Below the pieces are notes generated by a model, which saw nothing but the letters and a program-made list of their open reading frames with translations, ran no database searches and had not been told where the DNA came from. Positions 23,942 to 35,127 of a DNA stretch of 64,000 nucleotides are shown piece after piece. The position numbers and the translations under genes were made by a program. Position 1 is the stretch's first letter; every line of letters begins with the position of its first letter. This DNA comes from Thermoproteota archaeon (GTDB taxonomy: Archaea; Thermoproteota; Thermoprotei_A; Sulfolobales; Ignisphaeraceae): assembly GCA_030550585.1 (NCBI GenBank), contig JAUQPB010000003.1, forward strand, positions 160,333 through 224,332. The letters are read 5' to 3'.

Positions 23942-23975
23942 CGCGACTTAAATAATGATATTTACTGTGATTGAG

Positions 23976-24302
23976 ATGCCTAAGAAGGGGAGCCAAAAAA
24001 CATCAAACAAGTGCCCGAGGTGTGGTACCGTTGTGTCTTCTCCAACAAAAACATGGCAATTGATAGCACCAATACCTGATAGTGCAGGAAGGGTAACTAT
24101 AACTATAATGGGGATCTACGAGTGCCCTAACTGTGGCTACAAATGGCGTACTGTCATATCAAAAATGAAGGTTGGTAGTGAAAATGTGGAGATAGAAGGT
24201 GCCAAGAAGACCATTACTTTAGCTAGTTCTAAAAGCGAAAGAAGTGAAAATGTAATTGAACTTGATTTAGATGAGATTTCCAAGGAGGAGGAAGAAGAGT
24301 AG
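23976..24302 (+). CDS. Zinc-ribbon protein with Cren7-like core and acidic tail
   Basis: This 108-aa protein has two CPxCG knuckles (CPRCG near residue 13, CPNCG near 52) that should bind one zinc. The segment between them, KTWQLIAPIPDSAGRVTITIMG, recalls the KTWQLAP...GR...IG core of the chromatin protein Cren7. A basic start (MPKKGSQKTSNK) and a Glu-rich end complete it. It may be a nucleic-acid-binding or chromatin-associated protein; this is inference from a short similarity. ATG 23976 follows a GTGATTGAG SD-like run and the TATA box above. It is followed after 7 bp by the signal peptidase gene. Confidence 0.65.
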   Translation: MPKKGSQKTSNKCPRCGTVVSSPTKTWQLIAPIPDSAGRVTITIMGIYECPNCGYKWRTVISKMKVGSENVEIEGAKKTITLASSKSERSENVIELDLDEISKEEEEE

Positions 24303-27500: not shown

Positions 27501-29198
27501 CTAGTCTAGAGAGGATGTGGATGTTTTAGACTCTTCTTCCTCCTCTTTCTTCTCTTCTTTCTTTCCCTTCTCTTCCTTCTTTGGCGAAGCTGCTATAACA
27601 TCATCTATTTTAAGCACTGTTGTTGCAGTCTCTGTGGCGCTCTTCAATATCTGTTTCTTAACTATTACAGGTTCAATGACGTTGAGCTTCTCCATACTTT
27701 CAACAACTTTACCGTTAACTACATCTATACCGGCAGCTATTTTTCCTTCTGAGTGAAGCTTTCTTAGTTCCATAAGAGTCTCTAAGACATCCATACCAGC
27801 TGTCTGTGCAAGTACTGTTGGTATCTCCTCCAAGGCATCAGCGAAAGCCATTATAGCCAGCTGCTCTCTTCCTCCAACAGTCTCTGCCCACCTTCTCAAT
27901 CTCATTGCCACTTCTACCTCTACTGCTCCACCACCATAAACAATCTTTGGATCCCTAAGTATATTTCTAACAGTATTGAGAGCGTCATTCAAGCTTCTCT
28001 CAACCTCATCAAGCAACATGTCATTTGCTCCTCTTAGCAGGATTGTAACTGCTCTTGGGTTCTTGCAGTTCTCGACAAACACCATCTTGTCGTTGCCGAC
28101 CCTCCTCTCCTCGACGAGAGCACACTCTCCAAGATCCTTCTCTGTCAGATCCCTGATGCTTGTAACTATTCTTCCACCAGTGGCTTTCTCCAGTTTCTCC
28201 ATGTCACTTCTCTTAACCCTTCTAACAGCCATAATACCCTTCTTAGCCAGATAGTGCTGGGCAACATCATCAATACCCTTCTGGCAAATAACAACATTAG
28301 CACCAACAGCAGAAATCTTCTCAACCATATCCCTCAATATCTTTGCTTCTTCCTCAAGATATGCTCTTATCTGATCTGGTGCAGTTATGTTTATCTTTGC
28401 AGTAATATCCGGTTTCTCTATTTCTAGTGGTGCATCGAGCAAAGCAATCTTAGCGTTCTCAACCCTCCTAGGCATAGCAGGGTGAACAACCTCCTTATCC
28501 AAAACAACACCATAAACAAGCATACTGTCTAGTAAGCTGCCACCCCTCTTCTTCTCTATCTTAACCATATCAAGCTTTACATCATATGTTCCATCAGGTC
28601 TCTTCTCCGCAACTCTAAAGGCTGCTTCGATAACCATATCCATAAGCTTGTCTATGACATCAGGCGTTGCAATGTATTTGCTTGCTAGTGTTGTGTACAA
28701 TGCCTTTTTGATTTCAGCCTTTGTTTTCTCTCTATCCTCAGGCTTGTCTAGATCGCCAACGTAAATCTTCATTCCTATCTCATCGAGGATTTCCAACGCC
28801 TTTGATAAAGCCTTCTTATAGCCCTCTATTATAGTTGTTGGGTGTATGCCTTGATCCAGAAGCTGCTCAGCTTTGTCGAGTAGAGCACCTGCCAGAACAA
28901 CTGCCGAGGTTGTCCCATCACCAACTTCAGCATCAACAGCCTTTGCTGCTTCAACTAACAGTTTTGCTGCTGGGTGCTGAACCTCCATTTCCTTAACTAT
29001 TGTTGCACCATCGTTGGTTACAGTAATGTCGCCAAAGCTATCGACAAGCATTTTATCAAGGCCTTTGGGACCCAAACTTGTTTTTAGTATTTCTGCCAGT
29101 ACGCGAGCAGCCATTATATTGGCTCTTAGAGCCTCTCTTCCATGGGTTCTTGAAGTACCCTCTTTAAGTATTAGCACAGGTACGCCATACATTGCCAT
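27501..29198 (-). CDS. Thermosome subunit (group II chaperonin)
   Basis: This 565-aa subunit of the archaeal group II chaperonin (TF55/CCT-like) folds proteins in a double-ring chamber. It shows [30 protein letters not shown] (93-98, ATP hydrolysis), [27 protein letters not shown] and GGGAVEVE. The tail is Lys/Glu-rich ([14 protein letters not shown]). It looks closer to the alpha/beta type carrying VPVLILKEG at the start; I do not assign a subunit letter. ATG 29198 has GGTGGTG 6-7 nt upstream. Confidence 0.96.
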
Positions 29199-29274: not shown

Positions 29275-30150
29275 TCATCCCCTAATGATATGTGCAAAAA
29301 CTTTGCAATATTCACAAACATTTTCATCACTAAAGGATCCGCACAAATGGCATCTGCTAGGCTTTGATATAATAAAGCTTTGTAACATTTCAATAGATTT
29401 TGAACTCGAATACATCAGCTCTGGCGATCTAGTTAATATGCTATAAGCCTTTTTGATATAGCCATCAACGTTTACTTTAACACTATTTGTAGAATTGTCC
29501 ATCTTTAAAATTTCTTGCGATGAATAGGCTAGGTAAAGAATATCGTGAGAGAGCACATTGTAAAATGGTCGCACTATTTTTACATTTTCAACATATTTTA
29601 TTGGCATGCCCTCCCCGAAAACAGTTTTTGATATAAGTAGAAGGCCCAGCATCAATATCATTGATATTTCGTCTCTAAACAATAAAGATACTACATATTC
29701 TACATGATTCTCCAATGCTATTTTTGCTGCATATGCATCTATGTACTTGACCATATAGACAATCGATTTCGAAATTATATCAACAGGGTAATTAACCTCA
29801 TAGATTTCTAATCCATTCTTAACATGTTTCCTAGCCTCTTCCTCTACTATCCTACAATCAATCAAGTTATTTGGGCATAGAATTTTGTATTCTAAATCAA
29901 AGTCTTTCATAGCATTGTTTAGCACAAAAAACGACTCCAAAGACAAGGCAATGTCATCGCCTCTTATTGCGAAAATCACCTTCTCGTTTTTTCTAAACAT
30001 TTTGTAGTAATGGGAGGTTCTTCGCACTTGCTTTGCTACACTATTGAATAGACAAAGTCTACACAGTTTTTCTCCTGATGTCAGTCTATAGTATGTAGCG
30101 ACTCTTTTACCGCATGAGGAGCACAGCACATTGTTGGTTTTAGCCATCAT
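29275..30150 (-). CDS. Degenerate TtuA/Ncs6-like protein (PP-loop motif lost)
   Basis: This 291-aa protein has the frame of a TtuA/Ncs6 tRNA 2-thiolation enzyme: an N-terminal zinc site (Cys10, 13, 30, 33: CSSC, then GEKLCRLC), a central Rossmann-like domain, and a C-terminal zinc site (Cys267, 270, 279, 282: CHLCG, CEYC). The PP-loop, normally SGGKDS, reads AIRGDDIALS (61-70), so ATP binding and adenylation should be lost. The length matches TtuA. It is the last gene of a tight three-gene operon. It could be a regulatory or scaffolding paralog; the role is unknown. Confidence 0.65.
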   Translation of the reverse strand: MMAKTNNVLCSSCGKRVATYYRLTSGEKLCRLCLFNSVAKQVRRTSHYYKMFRKNEKVIFAIRGDDIALSLESFFVLNNAMKDFDLEYKILCPNNLIDCRIVEEEARKHVKNGLEIYEVNYPVDIISKSIVYMVKYIDAYAAKIALENHVEYVVSLLFRDEISMILMLGLLLISKTVFGEGMPIKYVENVKIVRPFYNVLSHDILYLAYSSQEILKMDNSTNSVKVNVDGYIKKAYSILTRSPELMYSSSKSIEMLQSFIISKPSRCHLCGSFSDENVCEYCKVFAHIIRG

Positions 30151-30156
30151 ATAATC

Positions 30157-30519
30157 TCATCTTTTTATGAATTTCACTTGTATAGATCTTGCCTTGAGGG
30201 CTTCTTTAATACCTCTTTTAAGTGCTGTAATGTCATTTTCAAAATCGTTAAAGATTCCTTCTTGTGTAAAAACACAAAAGCCATCTACATAAAGATTTAG
30301 CTCAACCTGGCGAGCACTCTCATTATTGCTACTTGTATCGTAGACCAAGACCGTATATATTGTTGGTTGAGATTCTTCTTCTATTATCTTTAGAAGTCTA
30401 ATGATATAGTCCTTGTCTGCTTTTCTGTATGCTAACGCAATCAGGGTTAGCTTATGCTTTGAAATATATTCGTTGGCTTCCTCACGATTTTTTATCTCAA
30501 CAACCATTTCATTTTTCAC
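30157..30519 (-). CDS. Thioredoxin-fold-like protein without active-site cysteines
   Basis: This 120-aa protein has a helix-strand-helix-strand pattern resembling a thioredoxin domain (KHKLTLIALAY, PTIYTVLVYD, YVDGFCVFTQEGIFNDFENDITALKRGIKEAL), but it has no CxxC and only one cysteine. I infer a non-redox Trx-like fold with low confidence. It overlaps the upstream gene by 11 bp and lies 6 bp before the degenerate TtuA-like gene, so the three genes are almost certainly co-translated. Confidence 0.55.
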   Translation of the reverse strand: MKNEMVVEIKNREEANEYISKHKLTLIALAYRKADKDYIIRLLKIIEEESQPTIYTVLVYDTSSNNESARQVELNLYVDGFCVFTQEGIFNDFENDITALKRGIKEALKARSIQVKFIKR

Positions 30520-31324
30520 GCTGCTTAAGTATATTCATTAAAATATTTTTCTCTTCATTAGTTAGAATAACTTCAACGTCTAAGACGTCCTTAGATTCGC
30601 TAGGGGGCTTTATGCCTATACTACTTAGATAGACATAGCCATAGCTTAAAGCTCTCTTCACGCTGTCCAACGGCTCTTTATATGCAAACTCTGTGAGCAT
30701 GTTCTTGAAATTAATGAACTCCTTTAACTCTCTTTCAGAGACCGAAGCCCCGCAAACTAAGCAGGAGAGATCTGGCATTAAAGAATTGAATCCACATTTA
30801 GGACATTGCAATGGGAGGATAGGATGGCGTTTCAACACCCATGCATGCCTCCATAAACTTCTCAACCTTTCAATTAAATCAATTCTACCAAATCTTAAAG
30901 CCTCGTTATATAGCCTAGGAGCATAAGCCAACACAGAGTCACCTATATTGTTGGTCACAAACTCTAGCTGGGCTTCATCTAACTGGTCTCTTAGCTCAAG
31001 AACTGCTGATGCTATCATTGGATAAACCCTATCAAGATTTCTTTTGATCCTTCTAATAATGGTGTCTAAATCTAGAGTTGAAGATTCTCCTCTAAGCACA
31101 TCAACAATTCTCGTAAACACTATAATATATTCATCGTTACTTAGATTTAGAAACTCCAGACCAATAGAAGATACAAGATCAGTAACATGCCTAGAAACCC
31201 ATTCTTCAGTGTCCACAAAACGTTTTCTACTTGGGGATCTAGGCCTAGACTTGTATTCAGAGTCTGTGGCCTCAGCAGGTTTCTCTTCTTTAGATCGCTT
31301 TGATCTAGGCATTTTTAACGCCAT
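30509..31324 (-). CDS. Helical protein with central zinc ribbon, function unknown
   Basis: This 271-aa protein starts with a basic low-complexity tail (MPRSKRSKEEKP to SPSRKR), continues with a mostly helical domain (40-170), then a zinc ribbon CPKCG-x7-CLVCG near residues 175-195, and a helical C-terminus. I do not recognise the family. The basic tail and zinc ribbon suggest nucleic-acid or ribosome binding. It is the first gene of the operon with the Trx-like and degenerate TtuA-like genes, divergent from nrdJ. Confidence 0.6.
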   Translation of the reverse strand: MALKMPRSKRSKEEKPAEATDSEYKSRPRSPSRKRFVDTEEWVSRHVTDLVSSIGLEFLNLSNDEYIIVFTRIVDVLRGESSTLDLDTIIRRIKRNLDRVYPMIASAVLELRDQLDEAQLEFVTNNIGDSVLAYAPRLYNEALRFGRIDLIERLRSLWRHAWVLKRHPILPLQCPKCGFNSLMPDLSCLVCGASVSERELKEFINFKNMLTEFAYKEPLDSVKRALSYGYVYLSSIGIKPPSESKDVLDVEVILTNEEKNILMNILKQREK

Positions 31325-31546: not shown

Positions 31547-34168
31547 ATGATGGCTGAGCAGAGAGAATTACCAACAGTTTTAAGTATGCAAAGTGCAGAA
31601 ACTGCAAATGTAATTGTCATTAAGAGAAGTGGTATTAAAGAGAAATTTGATGCTGGCAAACTGATGAGAAGCATTTTTAGGTCTTGCAACGGTATGTGCA
31701 ACAAGGAAGAGGTATGGAGCATTGTAAAAGAGGTGGTCACAGAACTTAAAGATAGAACAGAAGTTTCTACGGATGAGATTATTGATAGAGTGGAGAGAAT
31801 ACTCATCTCAAAGGGCATAGAAGACCCTAAGTGGTTTGAAGTAGCAAAACTGTATGAACTTGGTAGAATCTATAAGGATGTGTATGGCAAAGGCAAGCCT
31901 ATTTCAATAGATCCGAGAGACTTGAAGCTAAGGTTCTCTGCAGTAAAGGTGCTGGCCAGTAGGTACCTGCTTAAAGACCCCAATACACTAAGATTTTTAG
32001 AAACTCCACAGATGATGTTTAGAAGGGTTGCCAAGGCTATTGCCAAAGCCGAGTATACCTATTGCAAGAACTCTGGGCAGAGCGATGAGCATTGCAACAA
32101 TGTTTCGAAATACTGGGAGGAGAAGTTCTATGAAATAATGAGTGATCTGAGATTCTTACCAAACTCGCCAACGCTGATGAACGCCGGTACAAGACTTGGG
32201 ATTCTCTCAGCCTGTTTTGTAATACCAGTCAGAGACTCCATTACAACCCCAGAAGGTGAAGGTATATATGATGCTGTAAGGGCTCAAGCAATAATATTTC
32301 AACAAGGTGGTGGAACAGGGTTTGACTTCTCAGAGCTGAGACCTGAAGGAGACGTAGTAGCGTCGACAGGGGGTGTGGCAAGTGGTCCCATTTCATTTAT
32401 GAAAATGTTTGATGCTAACACAGATGTGATTAAGCAGGGTGGCAAAAGAAGAGGAGCTAATATGGGCGTTCTTCACGTATGGCACCCAGACATAGAGAAG
32501 TTCATAGATGCAAAAAGTGGGAAGCTCAAAGATTTTAACCTGCAAAACTTCAACATATCTGTTGGCGTATACGACTACTTCATGGATGCTGTAATCAAAG
32601 GAGGTAAGGTTCCTCTGATAAATCCGAGAAAAACCAATCTACGTCCAGATCTAGGCAATGATTCTAAACACTATGTAATATCTAAAGCTAGACATTATAT
32701 TCATGAGGATTGGGTTCAAGAAGAAATAATAAAAGAATTGGAGCTTAAAGGTGGTAGCGTATGGATAGACGACTCTATTATTGTAACATTGGACGAGGCA
32801 ATGGTTATAGCGGAGAACTCAAATGCCATTGTTAGATATGAAGACGCTAGGAAACTATTTGAGAAGATTGTTAGAAATGCTTGGGACTCTGGAGATCCCG
32901 GACTCCTATTCATTGATACCATTAATAGAAGACATCCTGTGTGGTACCTTGGTAAAATAAATGCGACTAATCCTTGCGGAGAGCAGCCTCTTCTTCCATG
33001 GGAAAGCTGCAACCTCGGAAGCCTTGACCTGTCGAAATATGTATACATAGATTCTGAAGGTATGCCCAGGATTGCATGGAAACAACTAGAAGAAGATTTG
33101 AAGGTTGTTGCAAGGTTTATGGACAACGTCATCGATGTGGCTAAGTGGCCTTTGCCACAACTAGAACAAGCAATTAAAAGAACTAGGAAGATAGGCGTTG
33201 GTGTAATGGGCTGGGCATATATGTTGGTAAAACTTGGAATACCATATGATAGTGTTGACGCACTGTATCTTGCTTATTACCTTGGTGAATGGATTGAATA
33301 CAACCTTGCACTAGCCAGCATAGAGCTTGCAAAAGAGCGTGGCTCTTTCCCTGCCTATGACCCTGAGAAGTATAGGCCTACATGGACAACAGCAAAGCCT
33401 CTAGAGGAGTTGCTCAGGACGGCAAACATTGATGGGGGTCCCAGCAAGAGGATACTGGAATTGGTATCCGACAGGCCCCCCGTTAACTGGAGCTACGTAG
33501 AGGAGCTTAGAAAAAGAATAGGGATTAGAAATGCTACACTAACAAGCATAGCACCAACAGGAACAATAAGTATAATAGCAGGTACATCATCAAGCATAGA
33601 GCCTCTATTCGCAGTTGCCTACGAGAGACATGTTACTGTAGGAACATTCATTGAAATCGATAATCTATTCCTAGAATATTTGAGAAAATATGAACTTGAT
33701 AACAGCGATGTTATAAAGCTCATCGCTGAAAGAGGCAGTGTAGCCGAAATACCATTTATACCACGAACATTGAGATTGCTCTTCAAAGCGGCTCATGACA
33801 TTGATCCCAAGTGGCACGTCCTTCACCAAGCTGTGTGGCAGCAGTGGGTGTGCGCTGGGGTTTCAAAGACTGTTAATATGAGATTTGATGCAACCATAGA
33901 TGATGTGAGAAATGTTTATGTCCTTGCATGGCTACTTGGATGCAAAGGAATAACAGTCTACAGAGACAAGTCTAAGACCCAGCAGGTAATATACGTAGGC
34001 GTGAAAATGAGCCAATCGCTGTCGCAGAAAAATCATGGTGAGCCAAACCAAAAGCCTGCAAAGGATAGCGGGCAACAACAGAAAAGCTATGTACTAACCT
34101 CGTTAGGCAATATCAGCGAGGCTATAGAGGATATTGCACACAGCAATTGTCAAACATGTGAGTATTAG
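31547..34168 (+). CDS. nrdJ: Adenosylcobalamin-dependent (class II) ribonucleotide reductase
   Basis: This 873-aa enzyme reduces ribonucleotides to deoxyribonucleotides. It has an N-terminal ATP-cone ([20 protein letters not shown]), the catalytic ten-stranded barrel with [26 protein letters not shown], the NPCGEQ loop with WESCNLGSL, and [11 protein letters not shown]. The C-terminal CQTCEY is the redox-shuttle Cys pair. Class II enzymes use vitamin B12 and no oxygen, fitting an anaerobic hyperthermophile. The start is one of two adjacent ATGs at 31547/31550. The 3' end overlaps the convergent TGT-fold gene by 4 bp. Confidence 0.96.
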
Positions 34169-35127
34169 CCATAGATGCTTCTTATTCTTTTATCCAACAT
34201 TTCTACAAGTTCATTAATATTAAGTTTACTAAGAGCTTCTGCATATTTTACGATCCACGAATATCCATTGGTATCCTCGAATATATCAGGATAGTGTCTA
34301 ACAATCCACGCATTTATTATAGCTCTTCCACGAAATGATTTAATAAGCATATCAACTTCGTCTATGTAGGGAAACCCCGATTTTTGAAGCGCTTCAACCA
34401 GTTTTTCAAATTCGTTTTTCGATAAATCCTTTCTTCCAAAACTTGCTTTACCATTACCCACATACCTTTCTCCATATCCTGGCACAATAACCTTGCCATA
34501 AGCTGCCTTCACCCTCCATGATGATGAGTCCAGAGATCTTACCCCAATAATTTTTAATGCCGTGTACAGTGTCGAGGTTCCACCAATTCCTAGCGCATGA
34601 ACATTTCCCTTAAAGAGTTTAACCAGTATTGCTAATGGGATCAACGGCGTTGTTCTACTTCCCTTACCCCCTTTTGCTAGCGAAGGTGGAACTGCACCCC
34701 CGTAAGCAACTACCCTAACTCCATAACTTTGATAAACATCTATAGCGTTGAACAGCAACGAACTTTCATAGCAGTGTATAACAGGGATGATATTCTTGTG
34801 ATCAAGTTTTGTATACAAGTATTCAAAATTTCTTATGTTCTCTTTCACGAGCTCCTTTGTCGCATAGCAGAAGCGCGATGGAGGGATATCTAAGGACATG
34901 AAATAGTCACCATCAATTCCTTTGTATCTATTAAAGACGTCTTCAACTGATAATTTCATTCCTTTAACCATTATTTGATAACCTCCTGAATCAACCCATA
35001 TAGAAGATGCTGATGGTCTGCCCCATCTCCATCTAATACTGTTTATCATCAATTCTATGTCAGGCATGTAGTCCCATAACCTTATCATAGTATCTGGAAC
35101 AACAAAAACAATCTTCGGAGCACCCAC
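34165..35127 (-). CDS. TGT-fold (queuine tRNA-ribosyltransferase-like) protein without PUA domain
   Basis: This 320-aa protein has tRNA-guanine transglycosylase barrel features: VDSGGYQ (45-51, the catalytic Asp region), MSLDIPPS (77-84), HALGIGG near 178 and DSSSWR near 200. It lacks the C-terminal PUA and other domains of archaeosine TGT and has no visible CxCxxC zinc site. It resembles the short TGT-like/DpdA-like proteins, which can exchange bases in DNA or RNA. The substrate is not determinable here. The start is GTG at 35127, preceded by GGTG. Confidence 0.7.

Follow-up and report, generated by a model that had tools for sequence, protein, structure and literature searches.

We will focus here on three adjacent genes, P3, P2 and P1, that lie on the (-) strand of a 64,000-nucleotide stretch of DNA from a Thermoproteota archaeon, referred to below as the window. 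They are separated by tiny gaps, and the same arrangement is found in the window's family. The features on which we will rely are the following:

27501-29198, (-): thermosome subunit gene, a conserved neighbour of P1 (cluster c1, 30 loci in 7 families), given as context and not as part of a proven unit.
29275-30150, (-): P1, 291 aa, a putative NcsA-derived pseudo-thiouridylase, so described from profiles, AlphaFold2, Foldseek, motif counts and a tree.
29305-29352, (-): within P1, C-terminal Cys4 zinc ribbon (C267/C270/C279/C282), kept in 38-39 of 52 orthologues.
29941-29964, (-): within P1, degenerate PP-loop, RGDDIALS, residues 63-70 (coordinates counted back from the first base of the ORF, 30150).
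30052-30123, (-): within P1, N-terminal Cys4 zinc site (C10/C13/C30/C33), NcsA-type with SGExLC, kept in 51-52 of 52 orthologues.
30157-30519, (-): P2, 120 aa, predicted thioredoxin fold without CxxC; the true start may be the ATG at 30507.
30509-31324, (-): P3, 271 aa, order-specific helical protein with a Cys4 zinc ribbon; the start is probably MPR at 31312.
31547-34168, (+): ribonucleotide reductase (RNR) gene, a conserved neighbour on the P3 side (cluster c4), given as context only.

An earlier note on this DNA had described an 11-bp overlap and a 6-bp gap between these genes. The ORF coordinates are indeed as described, but the 11-bp P3/P2 overlap holds only if a GTG is taken as the start codon; many P2 orthologues start at the position of an internal ATG (MVxE), at 30507 in the window, which would leave a 1-bp gap to P3.

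P1 can be connected to the tRNA 2-thiouridylases over its whole length. Taken alone, its sequence matches the TtuA model NF049949 (residues 10-285 on 3-290 of 292, E 4.6e-4), so that the length of a thiolation enzyme is retained from end to end, as had been claimed, and it also matches the PDB entry 6scy, an NcsA (E 2.8e-4). A profile built from 52 P1 orthologues, which contains no intact enzyme, finds the crystal structures of TtuA and NcsA in the PDB over positions 8-280 (E 5e-19 and 1e-18). The AlphaFold2 model is confident (pLDDT 92.2, pTM 0.91) and agrees with these crystal structures, a comparison with TtuA that had been proposed as a check: when the PDB is searched with this model by Foldseek, each of the top 17 matches is a TtuA or an NcsA (E 1e-13 to 1.6e-10), and TilS comes next. 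The corresponding TM-scores are moderate (about 0.64), and NcsA and TtuA are known to differ in how their terminal zinc domains are oriented (PMC10067955). In P1, an N-terminal LIM/Cys4 zinc domain is followed by a dead PP-loop (HUP) domain and then by a C-terminal Cys4 zinc ribbon; the Pfam family of the first of these, PF22082 (TtuA_LIM_N), is matched in 27 of the 52 members. From these profiles and this model, P1 is a full-length member, by descent, of the TtuA/NcsA lineage. A weak NCBIfam match to the tRNA-binding protein Pbp11 (E 0.008) was set aside, since it covers 31 residues and is thus too short.

What P1 has lost is the catalytic equipment. In a joint alignment, the PP-loop SGGKDS is found in all 48 intact homologues and in none of the 52 P1 orthologues, so that its replacement by RGDDIALS in the window, already noticed from the window alone, extends to the whole set. 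The loss also goes beyond what had been noticed, as all three [4Fe-4S] cysteines are gone: the segment carrying the central CxxC is deleted (0/52, against the 48 intact paralogues), the third cysteine is missing from every orthologue (0/52), and the histidine of the GHNxDD motif has likewise disappeared. The P1 of the window has retained its two Cys4 zinc sites, as had been observed, while about a quarter of the members are devoid of the C-terminal one. With both its ATP-binding and its Fe-S sites lost, P1 is predicted to be catalytically dead. That it would instead have kept some activity, so far unrecognised, that uses another active site seems very improbable to us: residue 244 is a glutamate in every orthologue (52/52) where the intact enzymes mostly carry a glycine, and the P156 and P195 columns are conserved too, but nothing remains of the ATP loop, the Fe-S cysteines or the GHNxDD histidine, and the alignment reveals no novel grouping of conserved polar residues in the core. 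Loss of all the catalytic motifs is also what one would see in a pseudogene undergoing decay or in an artefactual ORF. The chances of this are practically nil, considering that the ORF is open across at least nine families and that its predicted fold is confident, and we reject it on account of the order-wide conservation and of a dN/dS of 0.11 against a congener (dS 0.73), similar to that of P3 (0.08). P1 is thus under purifying selection.

In the GTDB taxonomy, the order of these archaea is Sulfolobales. Within it, P1 was found in 9 of the 11 sampled families (f1-f5, part of f7, f8, f10 and f11), and it was not found in the sampled genomes of f6, f9 and most of f7. Outside the order, none of the best 19 homologues from 300 genomes of the phylum is a dead copy, and all have an intact PP-loop; these 19 are a sample and not a census. 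In a maximum likelihood tree of 60 rows, the P1 rows group in a single clade (100/100) and the TtuA rows in a second (100/96); the NcsA-type rows lie between them. Some P1 branches are long, a sign of fast evolution, so the exact point of attachment is uncertain. In the LIM domain, P1 shares with the NcsA-type proteins, and not with the TtuA-type ones, the Cys4 pattern together with Y20, R22, S25, G26, E27 and C33. Signature and tree together led us to discard an origin from TtuA in favour of an NcsA-like one, and they show that P1 arose once, near NcsA rather than TtuA. The earlier proposal of a TtuA/Ncs6 paralogue therefore stands as far as fold and full-length homology are concerned, but the closer relative is NcsA. 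With archaeal NcsA (6scy, the U34 thiolase of Methanococcus maripaludis), P1 has in common the fold, the length, the N-terminal Cys4 LIM signature and the C-terminal Cys4, and it differs by the absence of the PP-loop, the CxxC, the third Fe-S cysteine and the GHNxDD histidine. With TtuA (PH0300, 5mko/5mkq; Thermus, 5b4e/5gha), it shares fold and domain order, whereas the second N-terminal zinc pair is Cys-His in TtuA and Cys-Cys in P1, the clades are separate, and the catalytic sites are lost in P1.

The two neighbours are of a different nature. The best Pfam match of P2 as a single protein falls below the cut-off, and its profile matches thioredoxins as well as PDI-like proteins (best E 1e-8); unlike these domains, P2 carries no CxxC in any of 49 orthologues. 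It had been seen as a thioredoxin-like, cysteine-poor protein, and the comparison agrees that P2 is, in all likelihood, a thioredoxin-fold protein without the redox CxxC. P3 had been called a basic zinc-ribbon protein, of which the Cys4 ribbon holds very well (invariant in 66 of 66 sequences), but the basic character of the protein is slight (pI 8.25, net charge +1.8). It is found in 135 of the 147 genomes of the order, and a phylum-wide sample of 250 genomes gave no credible match outside it, only three short ones near the threshold. Its AlphaFold2 model is confident (pLDDT 93.5), and a Foldseek search of the PDB and of viral models found nothing similar to it; weak PDB profile matches to histone H2B look like an effect of composition and were dismissed. 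Independently of P1, P3 is therefore a candidate signature gene for the order, and it deserves to be flagged as a near-universal gene with a confident predicted fold and no structural match.

We will now examine how tightly these genes hold together. The three of them do co-occur in relatives, and their order is conserved within the window's family. Elsewhere, this order does not hold: isolated exceptions aside, the genes are convergent, dispersed or absent. In most other families, P3 and P2 run in one direction and P1 in the opposite one; they converge 3' end to 3' end, and the thermosome gene lies behind P1. Among 48 P3 loci from named genomes that were not chosen for P1 (scanned with a subset of alignment A3, the full A3 being too diverse), P2 lies nearby in 37 and P1 in 17. 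P1 is unlinked from P3 and P2 in many genomes; family f8 has kept P1 and lost P3, families f6 and f9 have kept P3 while P1 was not found there, and P2 is missing beside P1 and P3 in families f5 and f11. P2 and P3 are thus frequent neighbours of P1 and not obligate partners. As P1 is on the opposite strand, unlinked or absent elsewhere, the association is real but loose and does not establish a three-protein complex, so that the fixed complex that had been imagined for this set finds no support in the comparison.

This loose linkage is where the main rival to our interpretation finds its grounds. P1 could have left thiolation altogether and been repurposed as an RNA- or protein-binding scaffold acting with P3 and P2, perhaps in chaperonin function, translation or proteostasis, a suggestion prompted by its thermosome-linked position. 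Indeed, P1 has remained next to either P3/P2 or the thermosome gene, inversions notwithstanding, in at least seven families, none of the three proteins carries a recognised catalytic motif, and both P1 and P3 seem, in our sampling, restricted to the same order. We nonetheless consider it rather unlikely: besides the many genomes in which P1 is unlinked, P1 exists without P3 in f8 and P3 without P1 in f6 and f9. The region is, moreover, a slowly rearranging block of housekeeping genes, which also holds RNR and Rpo6, so that the adjacency of P1, P3 and P2 partly reflects this slow rearrangement.

Several other genes of this neighbourhood can be mentioned in their own right. A protein of about 110 aa, all-helical and ending in ERLDRLEV (cluster c6; L235:406-759(+), L241:2805-3179(+) and L094:3285-3608(+)), is encoded in several families immediately ahead of P1 and in the same orientation, its end abutting the P1 start, even where the thermosome gene and P3/P2 are elsewhere; it stays beside P2 in f9 genomes without P1. 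At such loci, c6 is a better candidate than P3 for an operon partner of P1. Another helical protein, of about 105 aa (cluster c5; L100:2294-2623(+), L112:2066-2407(+) and L118:3878-4195(-)), is found beside P3, or beside P1 in f8, in families f3, f7, f8, f9 and f10, with no weighty Pfam match. In the window itself, a 320-aa ORF adjoining RNR (34165-35127) matches no Pfam family up to E 1, and its product resembles, by eye, tRNA-guanine transglycosylase-like barrels. At 23955-24302, a 115-aa zinc protein with a double Cys pair gives weak and conflicting Pfam matches (TFIIS-like, OapC, Cas12f TNB).

The genome of the window does not lack the enzymes that P1 resembles. A search for a second, intact ttuA had been suggested, and this gene is present (G000:C4, around 118193; best match PH0300, E 7e-71), together with an intact ncsA (G000:C4, around 427018; best match 6scy, E 5e-45); across the order, PF01171 is matched in 145 of 147 genomes. 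P1 is not encoded beside either of these genes, and no sulfur-carrier (ThiS/Urm1-like) gene lies near it, which leaves without support the idea that the set binds a sulfur carrier. In two relatives, a ThiS/Urm1-like gene abuts an NcsA/TtuA-type gene (G020:C1:764209-764601 and G063:C1:1735347-1735725), which is the expected sulfur-carrier pairing; P1 is without it. A published link between Urm1 and the thermosome in S. acidocaldarius (PMC4569737) was considered and put aside. It seems to concern another thermosome locus, because its neighbour Saci0667 is HerA-like and because, in the Sulfolobaceae genomes that were searched, a long distance separates the ThiS-like genes from P1.

The coexistence of a dead and an intact paralogue has a counterpart in eukaryotes such as animals and yeast, where Ctu2/Ncs2 is the non-catalytic subunit of cytosolic tRNA 2-thiolation. 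Ctu2 is a paralogue of the catalytic subunit that has no cluster cysteines and has kept the zinc-finger sites, and Ctu2/Ncs2 is needed for thiolation in vivo (PMC10067955). NcsA is a dimer, in which Ctu2 has been modelled in place of the second protomer; the zinc domains are thought to clamp the tRNA, and the same authors suggest that Ctu2 orients it (PMC10067955). A 2017 review considered it unclear what Ncs2 does within the Ncs6/Ncs2 complex (PMC5372739). Like Ctu2/Ncs2, P1 is a diverged NcsA/Ctu1 paralogue devoid of the [4Fe-4S] cysteines, with retained zinc sites and an intact paralogue in the same genome. It differs in being confined, in our sampling, to one archaeal order, and in being described here from its sequence and a model, while Ctu2 works in a complex with its catalytic paralogue, and s2U34 depends on it. 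We do not consider P1 to be an orthologue of Ctu2, as PF10288, the CTU2 Pfam family, is silent and no dead copy was seen among the best 19 homologues outside the order. PF10288 has no match in the window's genome even at E 10, and the 25 Pfam families that the 52 P1 members match most often (E 0.1) do not include it. This, together with the confinement to a single order, makes an independent origin of P1 probable.

Since P1 shares the pattern of loss and retention of Ctu2, it would most likely bind RNA and pair with the intact NcsA. The reading that we tentatively prefer, although we would place it somewhat short of an even chance, is that P1 is an NcsA-derived pseudoenzyme acting as a non-catalytic tRNA/RNA-binding subunit alongside NcsA, in the manner of Ctu2/Ncs2. 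An NcsA-type tRNA 2-thiouridylase would have given rise to P1 on one occasion, in or near the ancestor of Sulfolobales; ATP binding and the [4Fe-4S] site would then have been lost, with the fold and the zinc domains kept. The latter may bind tRNA or another structured RNA, and P1 may pair with the NcsA of the same cell in the fashion of the TtuA/NcsA homodimers. Within such a pair, it would position the substrate or adjust the activity, the role proposed for Ctu2/Ncs2 beside Ctu1/Ncs6. RNA binding, heterodimerisation and the identity of the partner are all things that we infer by analogy, and they call for caution, as P1 is distant from ncsA and from the sulfur-carrier genes and is absent in some families. 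Indeed, NcsA-type proteins exist in f6, f9 and most of f7, where NcsA would thus have no need for P1. We also count against this partner the actual neighbours of P1 (the thermosome gene, P2/P3, RNR and a small helical protein), and against a Ctu2-like role the silence of PF10288, the C-terminal zinc loss and the fast evolution. An alternative, although an improbable one, is that P1 needs neither a heterodimer nor P2/P3 and binds tRNA or RNA on its own, in a structural or regulatory capacity; it could, for example, compete with NcsA/TtuA or protect tRNA at high temperature. The zinc domains thought to clamp tRNA (PMC10067955) are its best-kept part, it is a free-standing gene in many genomes, and it is positively charged (net charge +6.9, pI 8.8); on the other hand, its nearest characterised relative is a dimer.

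In the one open-access collection that was searched, no description of the P1 family was found, and the paper on the essential genes of S. islandicus has, in its main text, none of the searched terms by which P1, P2 or P3 could be recognised. An order-wide pseudo-NcsA under purifying selection represents a second, apparently independent, dead paralogue of a thiolase. A bolder claim, possible but doubtful, is that Sulfolobales independently evolved a heteromeric tRNA thiolase, made of a catalytic NcsA and a dead NcsA-derived subunit, in parallel to Ctu1/Ctu2. Archaeal U34 thiolation is described as the work of NcsA alone, as a homodimer (PMC10067955; PMC12645042), so that such a heteromer, if real, would contradict the current view of archaeal thiolases. 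The hosts of P1 are thermophiles, whose proteins are usually tractable, and they belong to a group with genetic tools (Sulfolobus); a heteromeric thiolase in these organisms would thus provide a thermostable model for the job of the dead subunit.
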